Shown here: positions 46,679 to 63,333 of the stretch, one piece after another | Position numbering within the stretch: the stretch's first letter is position 1 | Layout of the letters: every line of letters begins with the position of its first letter | Source: a virus | Reading direction: 5' to 3' (one strand) | Length of the DNA stretch: 63,917 bases | IMG/VR virus record: IMGVR_UViG_3300022929_002740 | Span: 1-63,917 of that record | Made by a program: the position numbers and the translations under genes | Notes under the pieces: generated by a model | Seen by the model: the letters and a program-made list of their open reading frames with translations, nothing else | The model's database searches: none | Told to the model about the DNA's origin: nothing

Positions 46679-47827
46679 ATGGTAGTGTCTGTTGGCCAAT
46701 TAGCAGAAGCCTCACACTATAATACGGTAGCAGAAGATGTCAACAAAGTTTTTGGTGACAAGTACAACACTGCGGCTGTAACTGATTCTAATAGAAAAGC
46801 AACCCATAAATTTGGTTGGGGAGCAGTAAACATCGACGATGCTGTTCCAATTGGTGATTTGATAACAGCTCAAAGACTGCAATATCTAGTAGACAGAACC
46901 AATGTAAGTGTAGATCATATCAATGTTACAGACAGTTTGCTTGTGTTTGCTGTTCCCACAGGCAGAGATGATGTTACAGTAAACACACCTATTAGAGCAG
47001 AAGATTTAAACATTGTTGAAAGCAAGTTTAACACAACTATACTTGTAAATGATGCACACACCACAGTAGATCCAACAAACGCAAGTGCGTTGAGTGCAAC
47101 ACCTACAAGTGGCGGCCCACTACAAAGAACCAATAGTTGGCAACATCAACTAACAGGCGAATACTACTGGGACTTTGACAGCTACAATCATTGCAGATAT
47201 TTTTTTAACAGCGGCGGACAACTTCGGGTGAGCTTGTCAATGAGCGGTGGCAGTACAGCAGGTTACTACAACTGGGCAGATGTTATCAATGAGATGGGAA
47301 CACTCAGCTTTACTTGGAACAATGTAATACAAAGTAATAGTATTACAGTTGGCACCAGTGAGAACAAAGGCGTTTATGACCTAACAGAGCTATATGGCGA
47401 CGGTGACGGTGCTACAGATGATCAAGGACTATTGTTTACCAGTAGCGGTGTTACACTTAGTGGAACAGGATATGGTTACGGTTATGGTGCAAGCAGTCCA
47501 TATGGATTTATTACTGGACCAGGTAGTTATCCAGCGTATGCTAACTTTTATGCAAATACTGCTTATACCAGTAGTTACAGTACATATAGCAGTTATCAGA
47601 ACTTAAAATTTAAATTATACGGCAAATACAGCTTGAATGGAAGACGTTTACATTTTAAACTAGTACTAGATGATACTAGTTTTGATCAAGTAATCGACGG
47701 CACAGTTAGTGCAAGCCTCAGTTATCTTATGCCCGACACACTTACAAGAGGATCTGCAACGTTTGATGTAAACCCAGATCCAACAGTTGCTATCTCAGAT
47801 GATTTCAATGGCGTATTTGATTCATAA
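46679..47827 (+). CDS. Structural protein with Tyr/Gly/Ser-rich beta domain (382 aa)
   Basis: The N-terminal 70 residues are a small helical domain ('QLAEASHYNTVAEDVNKVFG'). Residues 140-382 are beta-rich with a pronounced 'YGYGYGASSPYGF' stretch near 270. Proteins of this layout occur at the end of the tail gene block in marine T4-like phages and are virion components. It is the last late gene before the sigma70 promoter of the accessory cassette. A ribosome binding site is not obvious; the ATG follows directly after the upstream stop. Function beyond virion structure is unknown. Confidence 0.7.
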   Translation: MVVSVGQLAEASHYNTVAEDVNKVFGDKYNTAAVTDSNRKATHKFGWGAVNIDDAVPIGDLITAQRLQYLVDRTNVSVDHINVTDSLLVFAVPTGRDDVTVNTPIRAEDLNIVESKFNTTILVNDAHTTVDPTNASALSATPTSGGPLQRTNSWQHQLTGEYYWDFDSYNHCRYFFNSGGQLRVSLSMSGGSTAGYYNWADVINEMGTLSFTWNNVIQSNSITVGTSENKGVYDLTELYGDGDGATDDQGLLFTSSGVTLSGTGYGYGYGASSPYGFITGPGSYPAYANFYANTAYTSSYSTYSSYQNLKFKLYGKYSLNGRRLHFKLVLDDTSFDQVIDGTVSASLSYLMPDTLTRGSATFDVNPDPTVAISDDFNGVFDS

Positions 47828-47885: not shown

Positions 47886-48233
47886 ATGGATGAGAGACTT
47901 GAACGTGCGTTAGAATTTGCTAACTATCGCATTACTCTGAGCAATCAGAAAAGAAACATTCGAACTCGAATGCAAATCTTACAAACAGTACACTATAACA
48001 AAGGCAGTTTTCTTGCTGATCCTATAACAATTGGACTTGTAAGTGGTTTGCTAACAGCAGGTAAAACTAGTGCTGTTGTAGTAGATACCAAAGAAAATCC
48101 AATTGAAATTGAATATCTTCAAGAATTTTTAGAAACACTAATCGAAAAATACACAGAAGCCAGTAATGAATACAAGGTACAAATTGACAAAGTCAACAAA
48201 GCAAGAAATATTAAAAAACTAATGGATTGGTAG
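47886..48233 (+). CDS. Unknown small protein common in marine T4-like phages (115 aa)
   Basis: Starts 'MDERLERALEFANYRITLSN' and is helical throughout, with 'PIEIEYLQEFLETLIEKYTE' in the second half. Short proteins with this start and a similar '...NPIEI..LQEFL' part are frequent in marine T4-like phages, with no known function. It has a strong ribosome binding site (AAGGAG) and is the first gene after the sigma70 promoter, so it is an early protein. Confidence 0.75.
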   Translation: MDERLERALEFANYRITLSNQKRNIRTRMQILQTVHYNKGSFLADPITIGLVSGLLTAGKTSAVVVDTKENPIEIEYLQEFLETLIEKYTEASNEYKVQIDKVNKARNIKKLMDW

Positions 48234-48236
48234 TAA

Positions 48237-49145
48237 ATGGCAGAACCAACTAAAGGTGTTTGCATAATTGCTTACAATAACAATCAGTTAGACTATATTC
48301 AGTTTGCAAGTCTAGCGGCAGCTTATGTAAAAACACATATGAAAAACAACAATGTTACATTATTGACAGATCAAGGAACAAGTGATTGGATGGAAACCAG
48401 TGTTCCTGAAACATTACAAGACGCTTGTTTTGATCAAGTAATAGTACAAGATATTATTCATGAAGACAATCCACGTAAACACATGGACAGTCCGTGGACT
48501 GAGTTTAATGCACAGTTCAGCAACAAGAATAAAAACAATGTAGTAAACATAACTCCATATGATAAGACACTGCTAATAGACAGTGATTATTATATTATGA
48601 ATGACTTTTATGATTATTTGTTTGATAGTGATGTTGGTGTAGGATTACACAGAGATGCAATTTACCTAGAAGGCCAAATGCCTTACTTGAATGAAATACA
48701 GTTGAATGAAGGCGGCATACATCATTGGTGGAGTACCGCTGTGTACTTTGACAAGAACAATTATGAATCGCAGATCTTTTTTGATATATGGGCGCACGTA
48801 AAAGAGAATTGGGATTATTATGCACTGTTGTATCAGTTCCCTCCAGCACTATTTAGAACTGACTTTTGTGTAAGCATTGCATGTCATATGATGAACGGAT
48901 TCAATAACGGAAGTTTTGTACATGACTTTGGTGGAGTACCTCTACTAAACATGGATCAAAAAGATGACATTGTTGAAGTTAAGTCCGTTGACGATTGGAT
49001 CATGCTTAGTCATGATAGAAAAGAGCCTTGGAAAAACATATTAACAAGGCTACAAAAGCAAAATATTCATGCTATGAACAAACGTGCAGTTAGCCGCAAC
49101 AGTGAAGACATGTGGAAACACATAGGAAAGGTACTGAATGTCTAG
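48237..49145 (+). CDS. GT-A-like glycosyltransferase (302 aa)
   Basis: An N-terminal beta-alpha start ('GVCIIAYNNNQLDYIQFASL') and a DxD motif in 'KTLLIDSDYYI' (Asp115, Asp117), followed by 'DVGVGLHRDAIYLEG' and 'NEGGIHHWWSTAVYFDKNN', the pattern of GT8-type and related nucleotide-sugar transferases where the acceptor loop names a visible tally of residues after the DxD. Donor and acceptor are unknown. It overlaps the next gene by 8 nt. Likely cytosolic; no membrane segment. Confidence 0.75.
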   Translation: MAEPTKGVCIIAYNNNQLDYIQFASLAAAYVKTHMKNNNVTLLTDQGTSDWMETSVPETLQDACFDQVIVQDIIHEDNPRKHMDSPWTEFNAQFSNKNKNNVVNITPYDKTLLIDSDYYIMNDFYDYLFDSDVGVGLHRDAIYLEGQMPYLNEIQLNEGGIHHWWSTAVYFDKNNYESQIFFDIWAHVKENWDYYALLYQFPPALFRTDFCVSIACHMMNGFNNGSFVHDFGGVPLLNMDQKDDIVEVKSVDDWIMLSHDRKEPWKNILTRLQKQNIHAMNKRAVSRNSEDMWKHIGKVLNV

Positions 49146-50016
49146 AGGATTTATAACAATAGGTATTGATACTGAAGAAGATAGAATCAAATACAGCTAT
49201 GCCCTTGCCTTAAGTATTAAACAGTGTGATCCCAACAGTGAGTTTTGTCTTGTGGTAGACAAAGATGCTAGCGATAAAGTCCCTACAAAATATCATCATG
49301 CATTTGATTATATTGTAGAACTGCCGTTTGGTAACACAGCATACAAAGATGGGTTTCATGGCATGAACTTGTGGCAACTATTACATTGTAGTCCATTTGA
49401 AGAAACAATTTATGTAGACAGTGACACAATGTTTAAAAACATAAACATTGAAACTCTATGGGATCAATTCGAAACTTATGATCTAGCAATTAGTCCAATA
49501 GCAAGAACATACAGAGATTATCTCACAAATAAAATATACAGATTTGAAATTGAAATGCACTACGAATTGCCACAATTATACAACAATCTTATCTATTTTA
49601 AAAGAGACAGTCAGCTTGCAATTGAATGGTTTAAGATGGCAGATCCAGTTTTTCAAAATTGGAGACAAGTTTATCAAACCATGTTCAAAGAAAAGAAGCC
49701 ATTGACATTTGACAAAAACTTGTTAGCAAATATTACAACTCATTTGTGCGATATAGAAAATTTAGTAAGTTGTCCCATAAACAATCATTATGATTTTCAT
49801 AACTTGAGTCAACGACATTGGGGAGATGATATTCCTGAAAACTGGACTGACATGCTCAACTACTGGTATACAGATCAACATAAACTTATGATTGAAAACA
49901 GTGTAGTAAACAGTGGAATTATTCACTACCAAGACGAAAACTTTTTAACCGAGGACATAATCGATGCAATTAAAGCCGTTGTTGAAATCAGCGATCGAAG
50001 AAACGCCTCCGCATAA
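49138..50016 (+). CDS. GT8-like glycosyltransferase (292 aa)
   Basis: Residues 5-40 form a nucleotide-binding start ('ITIGIDTEEDRIKYSYALAL'). The DxD motif is 'ETIYVDSDTMFKN' (Asp94, Asp96), followed by 'LYNNLIYFKRDSQLAIEWF', as in GT8 enzymes. A C-terminal 'SGIIHYQDENF' may complete the metal site. It resembles the preceding gene in layout, so the two may be old paralogues. It has an AAAGG ribosome binding site and overlaps its neighbours at both ends. Substrate unknown. Confidence 0.78.
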   Translation: MSRGFITIGIDTEEDRIKYSYALALSIKQCDPNSEFCLVVDKDASDKVPTKYHHAFDYIVELPFGNTAYKDGFHGMNLWQLLHCSPFEETIYVDSDTMFKNINIETLWDQFETYDLAISPIARTYRDYLTNKIYRFEIEMHYELPQLYNNLIYFKRDSQLAIEWFKMADPVFQNWRQVYQTMFKEKKPLTFDKNLLANITTHLCDIENLVSCPINNHYDFHNLSQRHWGDDIPENWTDMLNYWYTDQHKLMIENSVVNSGIIHYQDENFLTEDIIDAIKAVVEISDRRNASA

Positions 50017-50941
50017 GTTCTGTGTTTATTATGACGAGTGGAGCGGCGAGATCATACAGATCACTAATCGTCCCAAAGATAGTCGTCATCCTCATATAGA
50101 AACTCCTGATGAAACAGCCAAAAAGCTGATGATGGGAGAACTTAGTTTTAGCAAGTATCAAGTTGCACAGTTGGTTGATGGGCCTAGACTTATGCCCAAA
50201 GACAATGTGATTAGATTACGACAAGCAGAAAACGTTCTCAGTCAAATCGAAAGTGTAAAATTTGAAATACAAAGTGATATCAATATAATTTTCTATATCA
50301 ATGATTGGAAACTTGAAATTAACTTTAGTCAAGATACTATGTTTAGAATGACAGGAGCAAGGGACAGTAGAAATGCGAGAATACAAAGTGATCAAACAAA
50401 ACCGTTTGATTTTTATCTTATCAAAGGCAATGATCCTACATTCTTGCTCAAGCACATCAAAATAGATCCAATAGATTTAATGAGTTCAGGTTATATACTT
50501 TACGACTTGAGTGAACTAAGAACTATATGTGGACTAGGAGATATCAATGTATTGACCAAACGTATCTTCAAAAGTTATGGTATTAAATACAAGCAACACT
50601 ACACAGGAAGTGATTATCACAGAAGAAAAACACAGCGTAGAGTCCACAAACAAATTGAAACACATGAAGAATATGCAACCTTTAGCATCAGTAAAGCAAA
50701 CACAGGTTGGATATTTAAAAGTAACTTTGACGATCCAAAAGAACAAAAAATATACAGAGATATGACTTTATTTTTTACCAAAGATGATCCAACATATCTC
50801 ACACACAGAATAAAAATACCATTTGATAATATCGGATGGAGACAAGAATACATAGTCGACACTGAACTAAATTTTGAAGACAAAATATTGCTAGGTGAAA
50901 ACGCCAAAAACATTACGTTTAAAATTGAGGAAATGAAATGA
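49964..50941 (+). CDS. Unknown protein in the glycan cassette (325 aa)
   Basis: Starts inside the end of the previous gene (53-nt overlap) at an ATG preceded by GAGG. Opening 'HKFCVYYDEWSGEIIQITNR' and later 'GYILYDLSELRTICGLGD' do not match a family I know. Predominantly beta strands with charged loops, no membrane segment, no cysteine cluster. The opening resembles the small beta domains found at the start of some phage structural or scaffolding proteins. Its place between glycosyltransferases suggests a binding or accessory role, but no function is claimed. Confidence 0.6.
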   Translation: MQLKPLLKSAIEETPPHKFCVYYDEWSGEIIQITNRPKDSRHPHIETPDETAKKLMMGELSFSKYQVAQLVDGPRLMPKDNVIRLRQAENVLSQIESVKFEIQSDINIIFYINDWKLEINFSQDTMFRMTGARDSRNARIQSDQTKPFDFYLIKGNDPTFLLKHIKIDPIDLMSSGYILYDLSELRTICGLGDINVLTKRIFKSYGIKYKQHYTGSDYHRRKTQRRVHKQIETHEEYATFSISKANTGWIFKSNFDDPKEQKIYRDMTLFFTKDDPTYLTHRIKIPFDNIGWRQEYIVDTELNFEDKILLGENAKNITFKIEEMK

Positions 50942-51918
50942 CGAATCTAGTACCTATTACAGAATTTGATATTGTGTTTATCAGCTATGACGAACCAAAT
51001 GCAGATGAAAATTACAGCGACCTATTAGAAAAATGCCCGTGGGCAAAACGCAGTCACGGAGTATGGGGCAGTGATGCTGCACACAAAGCCGCAGCCGCAT
51101 TAAGTGAAACAGACCGCTTTATTACTGTAGACGCTGACAACATTGTTAGAGAAGACTTCTTTAATATTGAAGTTGATATGGATCGTGTTAGAGATGCAGA
51201 TGTTATTAGTTGGGCAGGTAAGAATACTATTAACGGTCTAGTATACGGCAACGGCGGTATCAAGTGTTGGCCCGTTGATGTTGTTAATCGTATGCGTACA
51301 CACGAAGCTGCACCAGCCAATGACAAAGCCGCACAAGTAGATTTTTGCTGGAACATACACTATGTACAAATGAACAATATCTACTGTGATGTTATGAATA
51401 ACGGAAGTCCGCTACAAGCATGGAGAGCTGGATTTCGTGAAGGCGTTAAGATGGGATTAGAAGGCGGTGATGTAGTTGATCCTGATAGAATCAAACATAT
51501 TTTTAGAGAAAATTACAAACGCTTAATGGTATGGATGACAGTTGGTGAAGATGTTACCAATGGACTATGGGCAATATATGGTGCTAGACTTGGATGCCAT
51601 ATGACTAACATTGTAAGAAATGATTGGGATTGGAAAAACGTTAGAGACTTTGATTGGCTCACGGAATATTTTAACAAAGAACTTGCTCCACAATTTGAAG
51701 GCGGCGAACAGTTGTGTCCACGTACAGGTATGATGTGGGATATGCAAAAACTAAAACAAGAAACTGTTAGATTAGGAGACGACATCAGAGGAAAGTTAGA
51801 TTTAGAGATAGCTGATATTGGCGTAGACGGAAGTAGATTCTTCAAAACTGTGTATAAAAATCCTGCTAGACTTGGTGCTATGGTCAGAGAAGATCAAGTG
51901 GAAGACAGCCTTGAATAA
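50938..51918 (+). CDS. GT2-like glycosyltransferase (326 aa)
   Basis: The N-terminus 'FDIVFISYDEPNADENYSDL' followed by 'SDAAHKAAAALSETDRFITV' and the DxD-type 'DADN' (Asp65, Asp67) are a GT-A core. The rest is less conserved, with 'GNGGIKCWPVDVV' and several Trp-rich segments. Marine phages carry many proteins of this kind. Substrate unknown. It overlaps the previous gene (ATGA) and its stop overlaps the TTG start of the next. Confidence 0.72.
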   Translation: MTNLVPITEFDIVFISYDEPNADENYSDLLEKCPWAKRSHGVWGSDAAHKAAAALSETDRFITVDADNIVREDFFNIEVDMDRVRDADVISWAGKNTINGLVYGNGGIKCWPVDVVNRMRTHEAAPANDKAAQVDFCWNIHYVQMNNIYCDVMNNGSPLQAWRAGFREGVKMGLEGGDVVDPDRIKHIFRENYKRLMVWMTVGEDVTNGLWAIYGARLGCHMTNIVRNDWDWKNVRDFDWLTEYFNKELAPQFEGGEQLCPRTGMMWDMQKLKQETVRLGDDIRGKLDLEIADIGVDGSRFFKTVYKNPARLGAMVREDQVEDSLE

Positions 51919-52696
51919 AACCGTTGTACTTGTAACAGGAGGATTTGATCCGTTACATTCAGGTCATATTGAATATTTTAAAGCCGCTAAACAACTAGGC
52001 GACAAACTAGTTGTGGGTTTGAACAGCGACGAATGGTTAATTCGTAAAAAAGGCAGACCTTTTATGTCTTTCCAAGAACGTAGTAAGATTATAAGTGCGC
52101 TAGAGTGCGTTGACACAGTAATTAGTTTTGATGACAGCGACGATACTGCCTGCGGAGCCATTTATAAAACTCTTGCTACACACGGAAATATAAAAGTTAT
52201 CTTTGCTAACGGTGGTGATAGGAACAATATTACTACACCAGAATACAAAACTTGGGGAGATCATCCCGATGTGAAATTTGCCTGGGGTGTTGGAGGAGAC
52301 TACAAAGCCAACAGTAGTAGTTGGATATTAGACGAGTGGAAGACACAAAAGACTGAACGTGAATGGGGGTACTGGCGTGTACTAGATGACAAAGGCACAG
52401 TCAAAGTAAAAGAACTTGTGATCAATCCAGGATGCAGTCTAAGTGATCAACGTCATATGCACAGGCGTGAACATTGGTATATACTAAGTGGAAGTTGTAA
52501 AATAGAAATAGAGAAGGATGATATTATACAAACAAATGCAGGTAGAGATCAAACTGTTCTATTGACACAAAACAAAACACATGTTATTAATGTATATGAC
52601 TGGCATCGAGCGTACAATCCTTATGACGAACCTTGTCACATATTAGAAGTTCAATACGGTAAAAAATGTATTGAAGAGGATATTGAACGTAGATGA
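51911..52696 (+). CDS. Fusion of sugar nucleotidyltransferase and mannose-6-phosphate-isomerase-like cupin
   Basis: With a TTG start at 51911 the protein has 261 residues. Domain 1 (about 1-140) is an RfaE/TagD-type nucleotidyltransferase: 'TGGFDPLHSGHIEYFKAAKQ' (His16, His19) and 'VVGLNSDEWLIRKKGRPFM'. Domain 2 (about 150-261) is a cupin of the type II mannose-6-phosphate isomerase kind: 'WGYWRVLDD', 'KVKELVINPG' and 'HMHRREHWYILSG', with metal ligands His182, His184 and His188 and a Glu at 187. The longer frame begins at another TTG, but TTG 51911 overlaps the upstream stop and puts the first strand in the normal place. The fusion suggests sugar-phosphate activation and isomerisation in one protein; the substrate is inferred. 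Confidence 0.85.
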   Translation: MNKTVVLVTGGFDPLHSGHIEYFKAAKQLGDKLVVGLNSDEWLIRKKGRPFMSFQERSKIISALECVDTVISFDDSDDTACGAIYKTLATHGNIKVIFANGGDRNNITTPEYKTWGDHPDVKFAWGVGGDYKANSSSWILDEWKTQKTEREWGYWRVLDDKGTVKVKELVINPGCSLSDQRHMHRREHWYILSGSCKIEIEKDDIIQTNAGRDQTVLLTQNKTHVINVYDWHRAYNPYDEPCHILEVQYGKKCIEEDIERR

Positions 52697-54153
52697 CAGA
52701 TAAAAATAACTATGAGTTAGACCCAGATCCAGAAACAGCGGCAGAGTTAGTAAAGCCAAAACTAGACGAAATTAGCCCTACTATGTGTATGGCTAAATGG
52801 TTGTGGACTAGTGTTCATTTAACTAACGGAACTACCAACAGTTGTTTCCTTCCACCTATACACAAAATTGAAGTAGATAATATTGTAAACAATCCTAAAG
52901 GATTGCACAATACTCCACAGAAAAAAGAGCAACGTCAGATGATGCTAGACGGTGAACAGCCGGATGGTTGTAGCTACTGTTGGAACATCGAAAAGATGGA
53001 CAGATCATTTAACAGTGATCGTCACTATCGCAGTAGCGAGCCTTGGGCTCAGGCTGGATGGGATGATGTAATACAAACAGGAGCGCAAGGAGATATTGAG
53101 CCACGCTTTATGGAGATCAATTTTAATCATGCTTGTAACTTAGCATGTAGTTATTGTAGTCCACATTTAAGCAGTAAGTGGGCAGAAGATATTGAACAGC
53201 ATGGTCCTTATCCTACTAAAGTACCGCACAACAGCATTGACTATTTCAAACAAATAGGGCAGTACCCTATTCCAAACAGAGAACACAATCCATATGTGGA
53301 AGCATTTTGGCAATGGTGGCCTGAACTATATCCTAAGCTACAAAACTTTCGCATGACAGGCGGCGAGCCGCTTATGGATAAGAATACATTTCGTGTACTA
53401 GATTATGTAATAGACAACGGCAGAGATGATTTAGAAATGGCTGTTACAACCAATGCTAGTGTTCCTGATAAACTGTGGAATAACTTTGTAGACAAAGTTA
53501 GTTTTATCAGTGAGTATAAAAAACTCAAACGTTTTAGAATATTTGTTAGTGTCGACGGATGGGGCGATCAAGCTGAATATATGCGTCATGGATTAGATTT
53601 TGATCGCATGTGGAACAATGTGCATAATTACTTGAGTAGAGTAGACGAAGGTCTTGTTACGTTTATTGTAACATTTAACATGCTTAGTTTACCCAGCATT
53701 CAGAAATTATTAGAGGGCATATTAGAACTACAAAGGGTACACAATGTAACTAAAAGTAGACGTGATGCAGATGGCAATATTGTAGTGTATGGACATCACA
53801 AAGTATTTTTGGATACACCTATGCTACGTTATCCTGAATGGCAAAGTTTACAACTTACACCAGAAAGTCATTGGCACTACGCAGATGAAGCACTAGAATT
53901 TATGAAAGCAAACGAAGATCAACATAGAAAAAGTAGATGGGTAGGATTTAAACCGCATCAAATCGAACGTTTTGATCGCAGTATTGAGTTTATGAAACAA
54001 GGCTTTGATAGCAGTGAACAAAAACAAGAAGCACAAGAAAACTTTATAAGATTCTTTGGTGCACACGACTACAGAAGAAACACAGACTTTAGTGCAACAT
54101 TCCCTGAATTTGCAGAAGTGTTTGCTAAATGGAAAGAGAAATATAATGTTTAA
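52693..54153 (+). CDS. Radical SAM protein 1 of 7, N-terminal SPASM/twitch-like domain
   Basis: A 486-residue enzyme. The core has C148-x3-C152-x2-C155 in 'CNLACSYC' and the SAM-binding 'MTGGEPLMD'. Before the core are Cys32, Cys51, Cys93 and Cys96 ('GCSYCW'), a set expected to hold an auxiliary iron-sulfur cluster. This is the layout of twitch-domain radical SAM proteins of phages. 'RIFVSVDGWGDQAEYMRHG' later in the barrel is shared with the sister proteins. Starts with an ATGA overlap with the cupin fusion. The reaction is unknown; the family abstracts hydrogen atoms from sugars or peptides. Confidence 0.9.
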   Translation: MTDKNNYELDPDPETAAELVKPKLDEISPTMCMAKWLWTSVHLTNGTTNSCFLPPIHKIEVDNIVNNPKGLHNTPQKKEQRQMMLDGEQPDGCSYCWNIEKMDRSFNSDRHYRSSEPWAQAGWDDVIQTGAQGDIEPRFMEINFNHACNLACSYCSPHLSSKWAEDIEQHGPYPTKVPHNSIDYFKQIGQYPIPNREHNPYVEAFWQWWPELYPKLQNFRMTGGEPLMDKNTFRVLDYVIDNGRDDLEMAVTTNASVPDKLWNNFVDKVSFISEYKKLKRFRIFVSVDGWGDQAEYMRHGLDFDRMWNNVHNYLSRVDEGLVTFIVTFNMLSLPSIQKLLEGILELQRVHNVTKSRRDADGNIVVYGHHKVFLDTPMLRYPEWQSLQLTPESHWHYADEALEFMKANEDQHRKSRWVGFKPHQIERFDRSIEFMKQGFDSSEQKQEAQENFIRFFGAHDYRRNTDFSATFPEFAEVFAKWKEKYNV

Positions 54154-55810
54154 AAATGTAGACTATATACGTGAACGTGAAAATATGAAAGAGCGTTATG
54201 GCTGTGATACTATGTGTACAGCTAAATTCTTTACTAGTACAATATATCTACAAAGTGGTCAAACACACAGTTGTTATCATCCATTGCCACATCAGATTCC
54301 ATTGGAAGAAATTAAAGATAACCCTAGCGCACTGCACAATACCAAACATAAAATTGAACGCCGCAAACAAATGATCTTAGGAGAGCGTCCTAGTGAATGT
54401 AATTACTGCTGGCGTGTAGAAGATATGGGCGACGAATACATCAGCGACAGAGTAATCAAAAGTAAAAATGAACTATTGCTTACTCCAAATGCACATGAAA
54501 AAATACAAGAAATGGGATGGGATCACAACTATCAGCCCACTTATCTAGAAATTAGTTTTGGCAATGAGTGTAATATGAAATGTGCATACTGTCATCCCAA
54601 GGCTAGCAGTGCATGGCAAAAAGAAATGATGCAAGGTCCATTGGAAAATGCAGAACATTTACAAGTATTGGATGAGAAAATCTATCCAGAAGATGATAAC
54701 CCATATGTAGAAGCATTTTGGGAATGGTGGCCATACCTGCGCAAGTCACTCAAAGTAATTCGTGTCACAGGCGGCGAACCACTGCTACAACAAAACGTTT
54801 GGAAGTTTTTTGACAGACTCGAGAAAACAAACGAATGTGCTGATATGATTGTACAGCTCAATACAAATCTAAATGTAAAGACCAAATTGGTCGAGCGAAT
54901 GATTACCAAAGTAAACAAATTGTTAACAGAGAAAAAGATCAAAAAATTTGCACTGTACAGCAGCATTGAAAGTTGGGGCGATAGAGCCACTTATGCCAGA
55001 AGCGGATTAAACTTAGAATTATTTGAAACAAATCTCAAACTTATTATGCAAAAGCTAGGACATCATCATGTAGACGACTTTAGCGGCATACAGATTATGA
55101 ACACATTTAATATCATGTGTGTTACCAGCTATGTAGAGTTTTTAAAGAAAATCGACGAGTGGAGAAGAGAACTACAACACGGAAAAGAATATCCTAAGGT
55201 AATGTTTGACATTCCACACTGCACTGAACCTAATCATTGGACACTAGTAGGATTACCGGATCGTTATGATGAATATTTTGATCTAGTAACTGCTTATTTT
55301 GAAAAAAACAAATGGAAAAGCAACTGGCAAAAATATCCCAAGGATCAACACGACGATAATTATTTTAACTACTACAGTGAAGAAGAAGTAAAAAGCTGGC
55401 AACGAGTTGTGAGTATGTGGAAAACAATATGTGAAAAACGTAGTAAAGTAAATACTGATGCATACTTACAGCCCAGAGAAATAGATGATGCAAGACGTAA
55501 CTGGATATTGTTTATTAAAGCCACAGACAAACGTAGAAACACAAACTTCAAAAATATCTTTCCTGAAATGAGTGACTATTACGATTTGTGTAGTACACTA
55601 GAAGATATTAGGTTTATGGAATACAACAGACAGTGTAAAGATGATCTGTTATCTGAAGACGAAATAGATTTTCATTGGGACGATGATTTTGTATGGCATC
55701 ATCCAGGCTTAGCTAATGCACTAATAAACTACAGAAAAGTTAGGAACTATCCTACTAAGATGTACAGTCATGATGAGCTGGTTGGAGAATTTGGACATGA
55801 CGAAGAATAA
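54146..55810 (+). CDS. Radical SAM protein 2 of 7 (554 aa)
   Basis: The start at 54146 is preceded by GGAAAGAG and overlaps the previous stop by 8 nt. Auxiliary cysteines 24, 43, 85 and 88; radical SAM motif C142-x3-C146-x2-C149 ('CNMKCAYC'); 'VTGGEPLLQ' follows. It is closest to protein 1 in layout: both share 'NPYVEAFW.WWP' between the core motif and GGEP, suggesting a duplication. It is the longest of the set, with an extra C-terminal region of about 100 residues with acidic and Trp/His-rich stretches ('DFHWDDDF'-type). Confidence 0.9.
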   Translation: MFKNVDYIRERENMKERYGCDTMCTAKFFTSTIYLQSGQTHSCYHPLPHQIPLEEIKDNPSALHNTKHKIERRKQMILGERPSECNYCWRVEDMGDEYISDRVIKSKNELLLTPNAHEKIQEMGWDHNYQPTYLEISFGNECNMKCAYCHPKASSAWQKEMMQGPLENAEHLQVLDEKIYPEDDNPYVEAFWEWWPYLRKSLKVIRVTGGEPLLQQNVWKFFDRLEKTNECADMIVQLNTNLNVKTKLVERMITKVNKLLTEKKIKKFALYSSIESWGDRATYARSGLNLELFETNLKLIMQKLGHHHVDDFSGIQIMNTFNIMCVTSYVEFLKKIDEWRRELQHGKEYPKVMFDIPHCTEPNHWTLVGLPDRYDEYFDLVTAYFEKNKWKSNWQKYPKDQHDDNYFNYYSEEEVKSWQRVVSMWKTICEKRSKVNTDAYLQPREIDDARRNWILFIKATDKRRNTNFKNIFPEMSDYYDLCSTLEDIRFMEYNRQCKDDLLSEDEIDFHWDDDFVWHHPGLANALINYRKVRNYPTKMYSHDELVGEFGHDEE

Positions 55811-57098
55811 AGACTATCTTGTTAATGAAAGCAAACATTTTTGCATGGCACCATGGGTAACAATGCATTTGTGGCCCAGTGGGGAAGCAATGCCATGCTG
55901 TGTGGTTGTACCAGATGAAGACACACCGTTTAGTGGCAAACTTGGAAACATACAAGACAACAGTATAAGTGACTTATGGAACAGTTCATTGATGAAGGAA
56001 CTGAGAACTAACATGCTAGCTGACAAACCCAGTCAGACATGTGAACGTTGTATCAAACAAGAAGCCGCAGGCAACCAATACACACTTAGACGAGAATTAA
56101 ACAAAGACTTTTCTGATTATTTTTATAGAACACAAGACACTAATCAAGACGGCAGTCATGATGATCCTAAAATTTATTATTGGGATGTAAGATTCAATAA
56201 CTTGTGCAATTTACGTTGTTTGAGTTGTAGTGTAAAGTTTAGCAGTAGTTGGTATAACGATAGTGTTAAAAGACACGAGTACGATGGACCTGCACTGCTA
56301 CAGTTACCAAAAAGTTTTTGGGAAGAAGCATTGCCTCTGATTGGCGAAGTGCAACATGCGTACTTTGCAGGCGGCGAGCCATTGATGACAGAAGAACATT
56401 ATCGTATGCTAGATACATGGATTGAAGCAGGTAATACTGATTTAAAAATAAGTTATACCACAAACTTTACAAAAACTAGATTAGGCAATCGTTATATCTT
56501 TGACTATTGGAATAAGTTTAGCAATGTACATGTGGGTGCAAGTTTAGATGACAATTGGGAACGTGCAGAATATTTGCGTAAGGATACAGTATGGACTGAT
56601 ATTGTACAAAATCGCAAAGACATGATTAAAGACAGTCCTGATACAAGATTCTTTTTGAGCAGTACAATAGGTATTTTTAATGTACTACATTGGCCTGACT
56701 TTCACAAGGAATGGATTGAAGAAGAACTAGTAGATCCTATCGACTTTAACTTAACTCTACTCACACATCCTGAGTATTTGAGTATGACAGTGATGCCAAC
56801 TGAATTTAAAAAACGTGTAGAAAAACGTTGGTTAGAACACAGAGACTATATTGAAAAAGCATTTTATCATGCTCATCCTGATTGGGACTATAGACCAGAT
56901 CACATGCAAAGTATGATTGATGGATTGCTTAAATATCTATGGAGCGAAGATAATTCTCAACTAATAGATAGATTTCACGATGAACAACGCTGGATGGATA
57001 AGATCCGCAATAACAATTGCTATGATGTCTATACTGAATTAGAAGAACTTAAAACATATGGCGATCATTATGAAAAAGTAGCAAACCGAGGATGGTAA
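55797..57098 (+). CDS. Radical SAM protein 3 of 7 (433 aa)
   Basis: The start at 55797 follows GGAGA and overlaps the end of protein 2. The N-terminal SPASM-like part reads 'FCMAPWVTMHLWPSGEAMPC' (Cys16, Cys34, Cys35) then 'GKLGNIQDNSISDLWNS' and 'CERC' (82, 85). Core C137-x3-C141-x2-C144 ('CNLRCLSC') and 'FAGGEPLMT'. It is clearly paralogous to protein 4 through 'FCMAPW', 'LWNS', 'LR.NMLADK' and 'W...RKxTVW.DI'. Confidence 0.9.
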   Translation: MTKNKDYLVNESKHFCMAPWVTMHLWPSGEAMPCCVVVPDEDTPFSGKLGNIQDNSISDLWNSSLMKELRTNMLADKPSQTCERCIKQEAAGNQYTLRRELNKDFSDYFYRTQDTNQDGSHDDPKIYYWDVRFNNLCNLRCLSCSVKFSSSWYNDSVKRHEYDGPALLQLPKSFWEEALPLIGEVQHAYFAGGEPLMTEEHYRMLDTWIEAGNTDLKISYTTNFTKTRLGNRYIFDYWNKFSNVHVGASLDDNWERAEYLRKDTVWTDIVQNRKDMIKDSPDTRFFLSSTIGIFNVLHWPDFHKEWIEEELVDPIDFNLTLLTHPEYLSMTVMPTEFKKRVEKRWLEHRDYIEKAFYHAHPDWDYRPDHMQSMIDGLLKYLWSEDNSQLIDRFHDEQRWMDKIRNNNCYDVYTELEELKTYGDHYEKVANRGW

Positions 57099-58372
57099 TG
57101 CAAAACGAAAAATATAATTTAACAGAGAGCAAAACCTTTTGCATGGCACCATGGATACACATGCATGTGTGGCCCAATGGTCGTGCTTTTCCTTGTTGTT
57201 TGGCTGATCACAGTTATGGCAATGACTACGGAAATACTAACACTAATACACTAAGTGAACTGTGGAACAGCGATCTAGCAAGAACACTTAGAAGCAATAT
57301 GTTGGCTGATAAAAAGACCAGTGCATGTAATCGTTGCTATGAACTAGAAGCAGATAGTAATGCATACACACTGCGAAAAAATATGAATAATCGTTTTGCA
57401 CATCATTATTGGAGAACCAATGATACACAACAAGATGGTACTTATGACACTGTAAACTTTACATATATGGATTTTAGATTTAGTAATATGTGTAATATGA
57501 GTTGCCGTAGTTGTAGTCCTACATTTAGTACACAATGGTATGACGACTTTATGAAAGAATTTGGACATGTTCCAGATGATGTTGCACCTCAAAAGTTTAT
57601 CCAACTCAAAAACAAACCAGGCTTCTTAGAAGAATTGCGTCCTTATTTAGACACAGTTGAAGAAGTATATTGGGCAGGCGGTGAGCCAATGGTCACTGAC
57701 ATGCACTGGGATATTATGAATCATTGGGTTGAAACAGGACATGCAGAAAATGTAAGCATACTGTATACCACAAACTTTAGTCAACTTACATATAAAAATC
57801 AACACATATTTGACCTATGGCGCAAATTTAAAAGTGTAAAAGTTAGTGCTAGTTTAGATGGCATGGGCAGTCGTGCTGAGTACATTAGAAAAGGCACAGT
57901 GTGGCAAGATATAGAAGATAATCGTATTGCAATGAAAGAACAATTGCCCAACATCTTCTTTGATATTTGTCCTACAGTAAGCATGATGAATATTTTACAC
58001 TTACCTGATTTCTTTGAAAACTGGACTGAAAGAGGATTGCTTAACGCTGGAGAAGTAAGACTAAACAATCTACTAGATCCGAAGTTTTTAAGTGTACAAA
58101 CACTTCCTACAGAATATAAAAAGCGTGTAACAGATAGATGGGAACAGCATTTAGAATGGTTACTAAAACGAGATGACTTTTGTCCAGATCATTGGCCCGC
58201 CAATGAAATTATTGATAGTGGACAGGGTACTATAAACTTTATGAATAAAACTGATAGGACTGAATTACTGCCTGAAACTATCAAAGAGTTTGAAAGATGG
58301 GATCGTATTAGGAATGAAAATTGGCTAGAAGCACTTCCTGAATTAGAATGTATTGGAGCATATCGTGAGTAG
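57098..58372 (+). CDS. Radical SAM protein 4 of 7 (424 aa)
   Basis: The start at 57098 is chosen because GAGG lies at the right distance and TAATG overlaps the previous stop; an ATG 6 nt earlier is possible. Cysteines 15, 33, 34, 77 and 80 in the N-terminal domain; core C132-x3-C136-x2-C139 ('CNMSCRSC'); 'WAGGEPMVT'. Close relative of protein 3. The barrel contains 'KVSASLDGMGSRAEYIRKG', shared in form with proteins 1, 2 and 3. Confidence 0.9.
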   Translation: MQNEKYNLTESKTFCMAPWIHMHVWPNGRAFPCCLADHSYGNDYGNTNTNTLSELWNSDLARTLRSNMLADKKTSACNRCYELEADSNAYTLRKNMNNRFAHHYWRTNDTQQDGTYDTVNFTYMDFRFSNMCNMSCRSCSPTFSTQWYDDFMKEFGHVPDDVAPQKFIQLKNKPGFLEELRPYLDTVEEVYWAGGEPMVTDMHWDIMNHWVETGHAENVSILYTTNFSQLTYKNQHIFDLWRKFKSVKVSASLDGMGSRAEYIRKGTVWQDIEDNRIAMKEQLPNIFFDICPTVSMMNILHLPDFFENWTERGLLNAGEVRLNNLLDPKFLSVQTLPTEYKKRVTDRWEQHLEWLLKRDDFCPDHWPANEIIDSGQGTINFMNKTDRTELLPETIKEFERWDRIRNENWLEALPELECIGAYRE

Positions 58373-59654
58373 CACTTATTGTTTATATCCTTTTACTAAT
58401 CTAAACAGCAACACAGAAGGCAGTGTAAAACTGTGTTGTAGTATCAATGAAAACATTCATGCAACAGGTGGCGATGGCCAAGAACTAAACTTCGGCACAC
58501 ACAGTATTGACGAGATATGGAACAGCGATTATATGACAACTGTTCGTAAGCAAATGCTAAATGGTGAACGTCCAGAAGCGTGTGCCGTTTGTTGGAGACT
58601 AGAAGACAAAGGTATACAAAGCAGTAGACAAAGTGCATTTGGTGAGCTAAAAGAATGGGCTAATCCAAAACACTATCAAGTTGTTAAACCTCCATTACCA
58701 CAAAGTTTAGAACTTAGACTAGGACACTTTTGTAATCTACGTTGCAATAGTTGCTGGAGTTTAAGCAGTGATAGAATTTATAATGAACGTAAAAAAATTC
58801 TAGCAGTTGATAAGAATCTACCAGGATGGATGCGCAACGAATGGTCATATGAAATTGATCTAGCTGATGCTAGTAATTGGAATTGGTGGATGAGTGATGA
58901 GTTTGATAAAACTATACGCAAACTTGCTCCCACCCTTAAACGTTTGTATCTCACAGGCGGTGAACCTACACTTATTAAACGTAATATCGAAATTATGCAA
59001 ATGATATTAGAAAGTGGAAACACTGATTGTTATATTGCACTTACAACAAATTTAACAACTTGGAATGAAATATTTTTCCAAACAATGAGACGCTTTAAAC
59101 ACGGAGAGTTTCAGATCAGCATTGATCATTTATATGACAGGAACTATTACATACGTTATCCTACTCAGTGGGAAAAGATAGAAACGCACATGGTGCATAT
59201 CTATGACAACTTCCCTCCAAGTTGGAAAATTAAACACTACACAGTATTTCAAAATTACAATTGGGACGCAATTCCTGATATGTTAGATTGGGTACACAAA
59301 CACAGAAGTTATTGGAGCAAAGAAGAACATCAGCGTCAATATATTTGGAGTCCTATTATACTTGATAGTCCAAATTATTTGGATGTTCGAACTATTCCTT
59401 TGCATATTAGACAAGAAGCTGCGGATATACTGGAACAGTATAAACCTAACTATGATGTTCCAAATATATATTGGCAACATGGTAGTCAACAAGCAATTAA
59501 AATCCTCAGAGATGATACACTAGATGAAGAAGTAAGAATTGAAAGATTGCAAAAGTTTAGAGAATACTGCGACACAATGGATAGAAATAGAGGAACAGTT
59601 TGGTACAAAACTTTTTTAAATATTGCACAAAAGGTACTAAACGATGACGCATGA
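58365..59654 (+). CDS. Radical SAM protein 5 of 7 (429 aa), GTG start
   Basis: GTG at 58365 is preferred to an upstream TTG because GGAG sits 6 nt before it and the protein then begins just before the first conserved cysteine. Cysteines 6, 24, 25, 73 and 76; core C123-x3-C127-x2-C130 ('CNLRCNSC'); 'LTGGEPTLI'. The barrel has 'EFQISIDHLYDRNYYIRYPT', distinct from proteins 1-4, so its substrate probably differs. Its stop overlaps the next gene by 11 nt. Confidence 0.88.
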   Translation: MSSTYCLYPFTNLNSNTEGSVKLCCSINENIHATGGDGQELNFGTHSIDEIWNSDYMTTVRKQMLNGERPEACAVCWRLEDKGIQSSRQSAFGELKEWANPKHYQVVKPPLPQSLELRLGHFCNLRCNSCWSLSSDRIYNERKKILAVDKNLPGWMRNEWSYEIDLADASNWNWWMSDEFDKTIRKLAPTLKRLYLTGGEPTLIKRNIEIMQMILESGNTDCYIALTTNLTTWNEIFFQTMRRFKHGEFQISIDHLYDRNYYIRYPTQWEKIETHMVHIYDNFPPSWKIKHYTVFQNYNWDAIPDMLDWVHKHRSYWSKEEHQRQYIWSPIILDSPNYLDVRTIPLHIRQEAADILEQYKPNYDVPNIYWQHGSQQAIKILRDDTLDEEVRIERLQKFREYCDTMDRNRGTVWYKTFLNIAQKVLNDDA

Positions 59655-60645
59655 ACTTATCAGGATTGAACAAGCAGGCGAACCGTTTGTAAACATAACA
59701 TGGCAAGTTAGCAATTTGTGTAACTTTCGTTGCACATACTGTAATGAAAACAATTGGAATGGAAGCAATTTAAATTTAGACATAGAAGCTGTTAAGCAAG
59801 GTTTAACAAAGATCATAGACTATGAACTAAGCAGAGGTTATACTAGACTAAAAGTTTTCTTCTCAGGTGGTGAACCTTGTTATTGGAAGCCTTTGATTCC
59901 TGTTATGGATCACATACTAGCTAGTGGAATGAGTGAAGTCAAGTTTGCAGTAAACACAAATCTAAGTAGCAAAATGTCGTGGTGGGAAAAGAATGTACAC
60001 TATTTTGATGATGTTGTTGCTAGTTACCATCCTGAGTTTGTAGACAGTGATCACTATATGGAAATCTATAAATTTTTAAGTGATAAAGTAAACTATCTAT
60101 GTGGGCGTATGATGATGCACGAACCAACTTGGGATGAAGTTATTGACTTTAGTAAAAGACTAAAAACAGAAATGAGTGAACACAACTGGCGTGTAGAGTA
60201 TGTACCTATCTTCGAAGAGCTCAGTCACACAACAAGGCCTTACAATTATAAAAATCCAGAACACAAGAAGTTTTTAGAAACAACCAACTTAGAACAAGAT
60301 ATTAAATACAACGTGCCTGCAAAAGCAGAAGGCATGGGCAGTATAGAAGTATACAATGACGGATCTACTCAGCCTATTAATTGTAACAGACTAGTAGCAG
60401 AAAGCAAAAACTTCTTCAAAGGATGGAAATGTCTAATACCAATGGAGAGTATCTTTATCAATTGTGAAGGCAAAATAGATATGGGTAGTTGTGGAGTTAT
60501 GCCACAAGTTGGTAATTTATATGATCCTGAATTACAATTGGATTTACCTGACAGTATAATTTGTCCTAAGAGCCATTGTCACTGTGGTACAGACATTTAT
60601 ATTACAAAATACAAGGATAAAAATTATGAAGCAATTAGCACTTAA
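59644..60645 (+). CDS. Radical SAM protein 6 of 7, C-terminal auxiliary-cluster domain
   Basis: A 333-residue protein of different build. The core motif is close to the N-terminus (C26-x3-C30-x2-C33, 'CNFRCTYC') and 'FFSGGEPCYW' follows. There is no cysteine set before the core. Instead the C-terminal 100 residues have 'NCNRL', 'KCLIP', 'INCEGKIDMGSCG' and 'CPKSHCHCGTD', the usual C-terminal SPASM/twitch position. It is the only member of the cassette with standard order. It overlaps proteins 5 and the NTF2-like gene. Confidence 0.88.
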   Translation: MTHELIRIEQAGEPFVNITWQVSNLCNFRCTYCNENNWNGSNLNLDIEAVKQGLTKIIDYELSRGYTRLKVFFSGGEPCYWKPLIPVMDHILASGMSEVKFAVNTNLSSKMSWWEKNVHYFDDVVASYHPEFVDSDHYMEIYKFLSDKVNYLCGRMMMHEPTWDEVIDFSKRLKTEMSEHNWRVEYVPIFEELSHTTRPYNYKNPEHKKFLETTNLEQDIKYNVPAKAEGMGSIEVYNDGSTQPINCNRLVAESKNFFKGWKCLIPMESIFINCEGKIDMGSCGVMPQVGNLYDPELQLDLPDSIICPKSHCHCGTDIYITKYKDKNYEAIST

Positions 60646-60946
60646 TTACTTTGCTGCATGGAATGCACAGGATGCACGTTGGCTTACACATTTATTCGAC
60701 AATGATGTTACACTAGTTGATTGGGATAACAGTGTGAGTGGGTTAATTGATGTAGTAGAGATGAATAGAAAAATATGGGCAGACGTTCCAGACATTAAAG
60801 CAACAGTACTAGACATTGCTGAAAGTGAACAACACTGTATTGCAAAACTACTGATACAAATAGACGATGATACTAGCATCGATGTAGTAGATGTGTTTAC
60901 AATGAAAGACGGCAAGATCACCAGTATCAAAGCCTACAAAGGATAA
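60626..60946 (+). CDS. NTF2/SnoaL-like protein (106 aa)
   Basis: The start at 60626 is preceded by AAGGAT; the frame is open further upstream but lies inside the previous gene. 'NYFAAWNAQDARWLTHLFDN' then 'VTLVDWDNSVSG' and an ending 'VVDVFTMKDGKITSIKAYKG' are typical of the SnoaL-like cone-shaped fold. Members include isomerases, cyclases and non-catalytic subunits. Lying between two radical SAM genes it may be an isomerase or a product-binding partner; this is inference. Confidence 0.82.
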   Translation: MKQLALNYFAAWNAQDARWLTHLFDNDVTLVDWDNSVSGLIDVVEMNRKIWADVPDIKATVLDIAESEQHCIAKLLIQIDDDTSIDVVDVFTMKDGKITSIKAYKG

Positions 60947-60947
60947 C

Positions 60948-62174
60948 ATGGATAAACAAACTTATTGCGTACTACCTTACAATCACCTTAGCATTGATCC
61001 TCAAGGTCAAGTACGTCCTTGCTGTAACTATAACTTTCATAAACAAAGTTTTAAAGACACAGGATGGAAATTTAAAAGCATATGGGATAGTGATAACTTA
61101 AATGAGTTGTTGCAAGGTGAACCGCATATTGAATTAAGAAAAGATGTTGAAGCTAATCATAAGCATAGTTTCTGTGATAGATGTTGGGTAAGCGAAGATA
61201 ATGGCGGTGAAAGCTATAGAAATATGTGGAACAATAGTTTTGGTTGCACTACACCCGAAACGTTTCAAAGACAAGTTAAGATTGAATATGTAGAATTTAC
61301 ACTAGGTAATAAGTGTAATATTCAGTGTAGAATGTGCAATCCTTGGAGTAGCAGTATGTGGGCAGACGAGATCTATAAAAACCCACAGCTGGACTTTTGG
61401 GAAACAGGAGCACATTTAGACAAAACAAAATTTGAATGGTATGATACGCCACAGTTTGATAAAATCTTCAATGAGATATTACCAACACTTAAACATGTAA
61501 ACATGTTAGGTGGTGAACCTTTGTTTAATGCAAAGTATTATGACATACTACAAAAGATAATTGACAGTGGTAGAGCAGGTGAGATTGTACTACAGTTCAA
61601 CAGTAATATGCTGGCTATTCAAGACAAAGTATATGATCTATGGCAACACTTTAAACTTGTGCAGATTAATATGAGTTGTGACGGTGTAGAAGGCGTAAAC
61701 GAATATGTAAGGTGGCCTGGTAAATGGAGTAAGTGGGAACGTAATCTCAACAGAGTTTTTGAGTGGCAACAAAAGTTAGGCTCAGATAAACTAAGTTTAC
61801 AGATACACAGTACACTCAGCAGTTTAACCTGGCTAGACTTAGGAAATTTGTATAGATACACACAAACGCTACCTATTATGTTCCAACTTCCGTTTTTAAT
61901 TCAAGTAACACAACCAGCAATGATGGATGCAATCCACTTGCCGCAACCTATCAAAGACAAAGGATACGAGCAGGCTATACAAGCACTAGAGAACAGTGGT
62001 GCAGAAGAGTGGGAAGTAAGTAATAATCGCAGTTTGTTAGAACATGTAATGAATACAGAACGCAATCCTGATTTATGGGAAATGTTTATTAACGAAACTA
62101 ATAAACTAGACAAAGTGAGAAATCAAAGCATACTAACATATGTTCCGGAGTATCAAGAATACTGGCATGAATAA
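60948..62174 (+). CDS. Radical SAM protein 7 of 7 (408 aa)
   Basis: N-terminal SPASM-like part with Cys7, 25, 26, 76 and 79 ('YCVLPYNHLSIDPQGQVRPC' then 'FKSIWDSDNLNELLQ' and 'CDRCW'). Core C123-x3-C127-x2-C130 ('CNIQCRMC'); 'MLGGEPLFN'. Closest in form to protein 5 in the SPASM part. AAAGGAT provides the ribosome binding site. The C-terminus overlaps the next gene by 8 nt. Substrate unknown. Confidence 0.9.
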   Translation: MDKQTYCVLPYNHLSIDPQGQVRPCCNYNFHKQSFKDTGWKFKSIWDSDNLNELLQGEPHIELRKDVEANHKHSFCDRCWVSEDNGGESYRNMWNNSFGCTTPETFQRQVKIEYVEFTLGNKCNIQCRMCNPWSSSMWADEIYKNPQLDFWETGAHLDKTKFEWYDTPQFDKIFNEILPTLKHVNMLGGEPLFNAKYYDILQKIIDSGRAGEIVLQFNSNMLAIQDKVYDLWQHFKLVQINMSCDGVEGVNEYVRWPGKWSKWERNLNRVFEWQQKLGSDKLSLQIHSTLSSLTWLDLGNLYRYTQTLPIMFQLPFLIQVTQPAMMDAIHLPQPIKDKGYEQAIQALENSGAEEWEVSNNRSLLEHVMNTERNPDLWEMFINETNKLDKVRNQSILTYVPEYQEYWHE

Positions 62175-63333
62175 TATAATACCTGCAACTGATTTGTATA
62201 GACCGTTACGTGATCTAATAAGAGACCAAGGGTTAATCAGACAACTGATTAACCAAGGTAATAAAAAGTGTTTGGTAATGGATACACCATATAATAGACC
62301 AGATGCAAATGGCGTTCCATTTGATCAAATAACACACTTTGAACAATTAGATCAGATACACAGCGATATCTGGCCAGACGTGATTACAGGAGAAATAAAA
62401 CTAGTATTCATGTTTACAGATTGGTGGCATACAGTAAATCAACATGAAACCAATTTACAAAAAAGTGGCAACTTGTTGAGCATTGATCTTTACAATGTTT
62501 GCTATAGACTTTGCAAACAACACAACATACTAAACAACAGTGTGTTTATAAGTCCTAGCAGTATCAAAGATGTTGTACAACATGAAGATTGGCCCATTGT
62601 ACACTACAATGAACCTTTTAATAGATATTTTGAATATACCAATGGTTACACCATACAAAATGTAGATAAATTTAACAAACATTTTTTATGGCTAAACAGA
62701 CGTTGCAGAGAACATAGACTGTATGCACTGCATCAAGCAAATCAAATGAATCTGTTTGATAATTGTATATACAGTTTACATGACTTTAGTGAACAGCCAT
62801 GGCAAGATGAAGATATAATTAGATTTCTCAGAGAATATTTGCCTGAAGATCAAATTGATCTCGGGTTTAGAACACTAACTAAAACACTAGATCAAAACTA
62901 CGATCCTGTTGAAGATATACAATACAAAGAACAAATACATGACTTAGATTACTTTAGTGAACGCACATATTTGCACATTGTCGGCGAGTTTAATTGCAGT
63001 AATCAAAAAGTATTCTTGACAGAAAAAGCTAGTAGACCAATAGTAATGGGCAAACCATTTGTTATGTTCGGTGACCGCGGCGGGTTAGATGAGTTACGCA
63101 GTTTAGGATTTAAAACGTTTGATAAATTTTGGGATGAAAGTTATGACACACTGCCTACTGCTAAACAGCGCATGGACGGCATGTTGCAAACACTAGACTA
63201 CATAAGAAACAACATAGATATTCAACAAGGATATTCTAACGAAATGTTACAAGTGTTACAACACAATATGGATTTGTATCACAATGAATACAAACAGCAA
63301 CAAATAAAAAAACTAGAGCAAGTATTTCAATGA
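62167..63333 (+). CDS. Glycosyltransferase-like protein (388 aa)
   Basis: The start at 62167 overlaps the previous stop; no strong ribosome binding site, so translation is probably coupled. The C-terminal half has 'FLWLNRRCREHRLYALHQAN', 'FSERTYLHIVGEFNCSNQ', 'VFLTEKASRPIVMGKPFVMF' and 'LRSLGFKTFDKFWDESYDTL'. The 'TEK..rPI..G.PFV..G' segment recalls the donor-binding part of fucosyltransferase-like (GT10-type) and related GT-B enzymes common in phage and surface-polysaccharide clusters. The N-terminal half is unlike anything I recognise. Donor and acceptor unknown. Confidence 0.68.
   Translation: MNNIIPATDLYRPLRDLIRDQGLIRQLINQGNKKCLVMDTPYNRPDANGVPFDQITHFEQLDQIHSDIWPDVITGEIKLVFMFTDWWHTVNQHETNLQKSGNLLSIDLYNVCYRLCKQHNILNNSVFISPSSIKDVVQHEDWPIVHYNEPFNRYFEYTNGYTIQNVDKFNKHFLWLNRRCREHRLYALHQANQMNLFDNCIYSLHDFSEQPWQDEDIIRFLREYLPEDQIDLGFRTLTKTLDQNYDPVEDIQYKEQIHDLDYFSERTYLHIVGEFNCSNQKVFLTEKASRPIVMGKPFVMFGDRGGLDELRSLGFKTFDKFWDESYDTLPTAKQRMDGMLQTLDYIRNNIDIQQGYSNEMLQVLQHNMDLYHNEYKQQQIKKLEQVFQ

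Follow-up and report, generated by a model that had tools for sequence, protein, structure and literature searches.

The question posed by this locus is why a virus should carry seven radical SAM (rSAM) genes side by side, and on which substrate their products would act. The window, by which we mean the whole 63,917-nt stretch of viral DNA, probably represents part of a jumbo T4-like phage genome: matches to T4-type head, portal, protease, baseplate, sigma and SbcCD-like proteins are found among the genes in front of the array, and the major head protein of the window shares 68% identity with PA5oct-type phages (~285 kb) and is close to that of other jumbo phages. Among the matches listed, drawn from a collection that may omit near records, this head protein was nearest to PA5oct-type jumbo phages and not to pelagimyophages. 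No tRNA was found in the window, so tRNAs give no clue to the host. The array comes after the tail and tail-fibre genes, and just upstream of this tail-fibre/array module lies an ORF of 3738 aa (33907-45123) that matches nothing in Pfam and likely encodes a giant protein of the tail or baseplate. A second cytidyltransferase-like gene (23350-23943, phrog_395) is located away from the array.

The array and its genes

A continuous run of overlapping or abutting genes begins at ~48237 and reaches the window's end, in the order Y48, Y49, X49, GTA, nucleotidyltransferase-cupin, R1-R6, SnoaL-like gene, R7, X62 and a further open gene. Together with the two genes in front of them, the features are:

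46679..47827, + strand: Y46, putative tail-fibre-like protein directly behind baseplate/tail genes; homologues upstream of many arrays
47886..48233, + strand: conserved protein of 115 aa; most viral loci have a homologue at this position
48237..49145, + strand: Y48, probable GT-A/GT8-like glycosyltransferase; LLIDSDY motif by inspection
49138..50016, + strand: Y49, GT8-like glycosyltransferase; IYVDSD; profile matches glycogenin-1 (E 1e-4)
49964..50941, + strand: X49, restricted to the closest phages
50938..51918, + strand: GTA, glycosyltransferase with a GT-A fold (AlphaFold2 pLDDT 87.5), located immediately or a short way upstream of R1
51872..52696, + strand: nucleotidyltransferase (HldE domain II-like) fused to a mannose-6-phosphate-isomerase-type cupin; PF01467, PF01050
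52693..54153, + strand: R1, N-terminal-twitch rSAM; NF033640 345 bits; 7/7 cluster cysteines
54146..55810, + strand: R2, N-terminal-twitch rSAM; NF033640 251 bits; 7/7 cluster cysteines
55797..57098, + strand: R3, N-terminal-twitch rSAM; NF033640 341 bits; SPASM PF13186 46 bits; 7/7 cluster cysteines
57098..58372, + strand: R4, N-terminal-twitch rSAM, sister of R3; NF033640 380 bits; AlphaFold2 pLDDT 89.7
58365..59654, + strand: R5, N-terminal-twitch rSAM; NF033640 292 bits; 7/7 cluster cysteines
59644..60645, + strand: R6, rSAM of another type; under the cut-off in the protein scan for both PF04055 (27 bits) and NF033640 (36 bits)
60626..60946, + strand: SnoaL-like small protein of 106 aa, between R6 and R7; PF12680 49 bits
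60948..62174, + strand: R7, N-terminal-twitch rSAM; NF033640 297 bits; 7/7 cluster cysteines
62140..63333, + strand: X62, possible GT-B/GT10-like glycosyltransferase; C-terminal TEK...GKPFVxxGDRGxLxELRxLGFxTF, by inspection only

The seven rSAM ORFs (52693-62174, + strand) are intact and form one overlapping run. The Pfam Radical_SAM profile found all of them independently (seven matches, no internal stops), and five exceed its curated cut-off; R3 and R4 score below it, yet have strong NF033640 support. CxxxCxxC and GGEP occur once each in every one of R1-R7, so that all seven carry in the barrel the CxxxCxxC and GGEP-type motifs by which the superfamily is recognized, in R4 also according to its model. 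This agrees with the sequence-only reading, which had described seven tandem rSAM genes with both motifs in a phage operon and had regarded copies without iron-sulfur or SAM-binding residues as one ground for doubt. Its description of the genes as consecutive or near-consecutive holds, with the SnoaL-like gene splitting the sixth from the seventh.

Six of the proteins, R1-R5 and R7, belong to the NCBIfam family NF033640 (N_Twi_rSAM), with full-length scores of 251-380 bits against a curated cut-off of 170 bits, whereas R6 gives a partial match of 35.8 bits and falls outside the family of the other six. The earlier claim that genes 5, 6 and 7 differ from the rest is thus right for R6 alone, as R5 and R7 are of the same family as R1-R4. 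Each of the six has all seven cluster cysteines (four in an N-terminal twitch domain and three of the SAM cluster), which are kept, position by position, in 38-41 of 41 relatives; with all of these cysteines kept, decayed copies are ruled out. In these six the twitch domain is N-terminal, unlike the C-terminal placing of SPASM/twitch domains, and the extra cysteines of R6 are, by inspection, C-terminal. R2 and R3 probably start at ATG 54146 and ATG 55797, respectively.

Compared with a relative of 63-88% protein identity, dN/dS was 0.02-0.16 for six array genes, and for R2, in which dS was saturated, pN/pS was 0.27. These ratios show clear purifying selection on all seven array genes, which are therefore working genes. 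Since neighbours overlap or abut, and the array region has about as many promoter- and terminator-like sites as expected from shuffled sequence, a single transcript for the array is plausible. No known RNA families were found in the operon region.

Recurrence in other viruses

A search of viral contigs with R1 gave 120 related stretches, from which 79 loci were kept. At least five rSAM genes (5-7 at the array site) were present in 56 of ~80 fetched viral contigs, a count in which near-identical contigs are merged only partly and many contigs are cut by their ends. The order R1-R2-R3-R4-R5-R6-SnoaL-R7-X62, whose presence in other aquatic phage contigs had been set as a test, recurs in five of them (loci L001, L002, L003, L004 and L011), L001 being an almost identical phage to that of the window. 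Other loci keep the rSAM order but have R5 and R6 separated by an insert (L006, L008) or have R5 preceding R3/R4 (L014, L033, L034), and freshwater-type relatives possess a different conserved five-gene set, in which X62 homologues are often interleaved with the rSAM genes. The arrays therefore recur as sets, and not as scattered unrelated genes, which would have made a joint pathway doubtful.

Two viral records of 57.7 and 67.8 kb contain 18 and 16 NF033640-family matches, respectively. The 57.7-kb relative has a second array ~20 kb downstream of the first, with further N-twitch and R6-like genes; this array (L173 and L174, ~36-48 kb of the contig) is divergent, with a GTA-like gene at its start. 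CxxxCxxC is missing from one, and GGEP from few, of the 414 N-twitch ORFs that the viral loci contain. Three loci filed under bacteria (L099, L100 and L131, from Flavobacterium, Rickettsiales and Rhodobacteraceae MAGs) hold phage-type arrays, and we regarded them as phage contigs that had probably been misbinned; L100 and L131 have Y46-Y48-Y49-GTA upstream of the array, which is the phage neighbourhood.

Phylogeny and bacterial relatives

A FastTree phylogeny of 196 rows, in which long branches are present and the deep order is unsafe, placed R1, R2, R3, R4, R5 and R7 in separate phage clades with high local support (100%). Only R3 and R4 are sister clades (96%), so of the two duplicated pairs proposed earlier, 3/4 is upheld by the tree and 1/2 is not. 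Recent tandem duplication as the main origin is ruled out by this tree, and the distinct clades agree with the proposal that the members serve different steps rather than dosage.

Bacterial sequences, many of them from Bdellovibrionota, branch between the phage clades, and in some Bdellovibrionota an R6 orthologue (256-292 bits) comes immediately after an R3/R4-type gene. This interleaving, and these pairs, indicate that the rSAM set predates this phage lineage and was transferred between bacteria and phages, in one direction or the other. In L094, L096 and L097 (Bdellovibrionota) more rSAM genes adjoin the pair. Such arrays are not unique to phages, with up to eight clustered copies in Bdellovibrionota. 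The statement that such an array is rare in any genome was too strong, given the eight N-twitch genes within 12 kb of a Bacteriovoracaceae contig and the 58 N_Twi_rSAM matches, in tandem, of Elusimicrobia MAG bin-0981 (2.9 Mb; L114, L117, L123; G038). Many of the latter genes are fused to long TPR repeats, and an N-twitch rSAM is fused to Sel1 repeats in L101 and to an FkbM methyltransferase in a Hyphomicrobiales MAG (L166:8948-11194). The tally of neighbouring families in bacterial genomes was mixed, with no strong theme and a weak share of glycosyltransferases; the clustered Bdellovibrionota genes adjoin apparent housekeeping genes, and no tail genes were seen beside bacterial arrays.

Neighbouring genes

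Search of the PDB with the GTA sequence returned nothing meaningful, so its fold was predicted instead, and Foldseek with this model gave, among the matches listed, the glycosyltransferases SunS, TarP, WrtF, RmlT and TarS. GTA is present upstream of R1, across lineages, in the phage loci covering that region; Y49 is upstream of nearly all arrays, and Y48 of nearly all that are not cut by a contig end. As the phage lineages are related, this shared neighbourhood does not amount to many independent observations. Matches of Y48 to glycogenin were weak (E 0.64), the nucleotidyltransferase-cupin scored 79 bits against TIGR02199, which is under the cut-off, and X62 had no match in Pfam/family libraries or PDB profile searches, leaving its glycosyltransferase identity unconfirmed. 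In 50,697 phage records there were no matches to GTA or R6. The sole small ORF upstream of the array (47886-48233) encodes the conserved protein listed above, which is without cysteines.

Comparison with known enzymes and systems

The enzymes are known in kind, whilst the system as such is undescribed in the open-licence literature. A fold search with the R4 model matched CteB, BlsE and anSME, which include sugar- and peptide-acting enzymes, so the fold does not decide the class of substrate. In a sequence-profile search of the PDB with the N-terminal domain, the first match was the twitch domain of BtrN, and BlsE was among the top matches by sequence and by fold. BtrN acts on an aminocyclitol and BlsE on a sugar nucleoside. 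With BtrN, SpeY and BlsE, which act on sugars, sugar nucleosides and cyclitols, the array shares the radical SAM core, and the BtrN twitch aligns to the array N-terminal domain, but the twitch of BtrN is C-terminal and identity is low. With the peptide/protein-acting SPASM enzymes anSME and CteB the likeness lies in the fold of the core region, but no peptide substrate or leader-binding domain was seen in the array. The array genes overlap or abut, and no RiPP precursor ORF was found among them, in keeping with the earlier remark that there is no room for one; matches of the array proteins to RiPP maturase equivalogs were all far under the cut-offs.

NF033640 is a family name without a function, and its definition includes neither phage tandem sets with glycosyltransferases nor R6. 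We know of no substrate for any member of this orphan enzyme family. A virome study found rSAM and glycosyltransferase genes to be enriched, and in the same literature we found nothing that describes an ordered array of many paralogues or connects it with NF033640. Cassettes of rSAM genes in the host recognition cluster of pelagimyophages have been mentioned in passing (PMC7029224). Those phages resemble the window in being T4-like, with a variable tail-fibre island of glycosyltransferase and rSAM genes (PMC7029224), but no array was analyzed there, and the head protein of the window is nearest to that of PA5oct-type jumbo phages among the matches listed.

Possible functions of the array

On balance, we lean towards a multi-step glycan-tailoring operon acting on the host envelope or the virion, with a sugar as the presumed substrate. 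The ordered, distinct rSAM genes are surrounded by three to four putative glycosyltransferases, a sugar-nucleotide-type nucleotidyltransferase-cupin and the SnoaL-like protein, in what appears to be a tail-fibre/host-interaction module. In such a pathway the glycosyltransferases would assemble one oligosaccharide, and each rSAM would perform a different C-H step (oxidation, epimerization, dehydration or similar) on its sugars, the SAM cluster making the 5'-deoxyadenosyl radical and the auxiliary twitch cluster accepting an electron or holding the substrate. The product would most likely be placed on the host envelope during infection, and second most likely on the virion; an envelope glycan would hide or change receptors against rival phages.

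This reading is favoured because GTA, with its GT-A fold, precedes R1, because Y48 and the glycogenin-matching Y49 lie further upstream, and because the nucleotidyltransferase/Man6P-isomerase cupin adjoins R1. The rSAM genes of Vibrio phages K566 and KVP40 (see below) likewise lie with or near glycosyltransferase genes, and further reasons are the receptor switch in the lineage that gained the K566/K567 island, the BtrN and BlsE matches, the bacterial FkbM fusion, the distinct R1-R5 and R7 clades and the lack of space for a peptide precursor. Against it stand the fold search, which equally returns CteB and anSME, the mixed bacterial neighbours, the unconfirmed X62 and the unmatched GTA and R6. 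Of the sugar, glycan or large virion protein first suggested as substrate, the adjoining glycosyltransferases thus favour a glycan, on which the fold matches are divided.

The main rival, itself rather unlikely, is that the enzymes are SPASM-type modifiers which introduce cross-links, epimers or oxidized side chains into a large virion protein, such as the tail fibre or the 3738-aa protein. Peptides or proteins are the substrates of most characterized SPASM/twitch rSAMs, the fold search placed CteB and anSME among its best matches, and the array is directly behind tail genes. Its companions, however, are glycosyltransferases and not proteases, leader-binding proteins or transporters, no precursor lies in the array, the N-terminal twitch is unlike known peptide maturases, and the bacterial arrays have no adjoining tail genes.

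Seven rSAMs with a SnoaL-like protein also resemble a biosynthetic cluster, but it is improbable that the array makes a natural product or cofactor which diffuses and serves host takeover, as carrier proteins, synthetases, transporters and precursor peptides are absent from the operon and glycosyltransferases are conserved beside the array. Slightly less credible still is the decoration of hydroxymethylated phage DNA bases. Phage glycosyltransferases often act on DNA, and rSAMs take part in some thymidine hypermodification pathways; yet the array is in the tail module and not with DNA metabolism genes, and of 14 array-bearing viral records (86-236 kb, fragments) one has a gene of the thymidylate synthase family, from which hydroxymethyl bases usually derive. 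Redundant copies from ordinary duplication, with little functional meaning, are the least credible of all, for apart from the R3/R4 sisters the clades lie far apart, with bacterial relatives branching in between, all cluster cysteines are kept, the genes are under purifying selection, and the sets recur in dozens of contigs.

A bolder extension of glycan tailoring, which we put forward tentatively, is that aquatic T4-like phages possess a multi-step radical pathway of up to ~16-18 rSAMs per virus which may successively remodel one surface glycan (or tail protein) by a chemistry without known cellular counterpart; the pathway would be a modular tool for masking receptors or for disguise, passed between phages and bacteria such as Bdellovibrionota. 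If the glycan substrate is true, phages would rewrite cell-surface or virion sugars by radical chemistry, which is relevant to superinfection exclusion and to the recognition of hosts by phages in natural waters. NF033640 in any case gains a biological setting, as ordered, conserved and distinct paralogues found with glycosyltransferases in widespread aquatic phages.

Cultured Vibrio phages

In the only distantly related Vibrio phage K566 (OZ196521.1 161548-172827; L175), four N-twitch rSAMs alternate with two GT8 genes and one GT4-like gene, and in KVP40, which has three weaker rSAM relatives (61-94 bits), one of these sits two genes from a glycosyltransferase-like gene. Like the window, the K566/K567 island (VPK566_0302-0314) and KVP40 unite glycosyltransferases with several N-twitch-type rSAMs in a T4-like phage, here with a genome of ~250 kb, but they differ in having three to four rSAMs of low identity (22-25%) and, in K566, LpxC (140 bits) and PagP. 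The closeness of these two genes to the rSAM-glycosyltransferase island speaks for the glycan reading, and their place on a separate transcription unit counts against it. Sister phage 6E351A carries another island at this site.

Passages of PMC12028318 report that the K566/K567 subclade gained the island at its founding, in place of an anti-defence island, and that the lineage switched its receptor to LamB from OmpK; these passages name the glycosyltransferase and lipid A genes of the island and make no mention of the rSAM genes. The K566 region is a phage-encoded lipid A/glycan island in a cultured jumbo phage and so offers a laboratory model, and it is above all in K566, with four members and three glycosyltransferases, that the substrate of NF033640 becomes testable.
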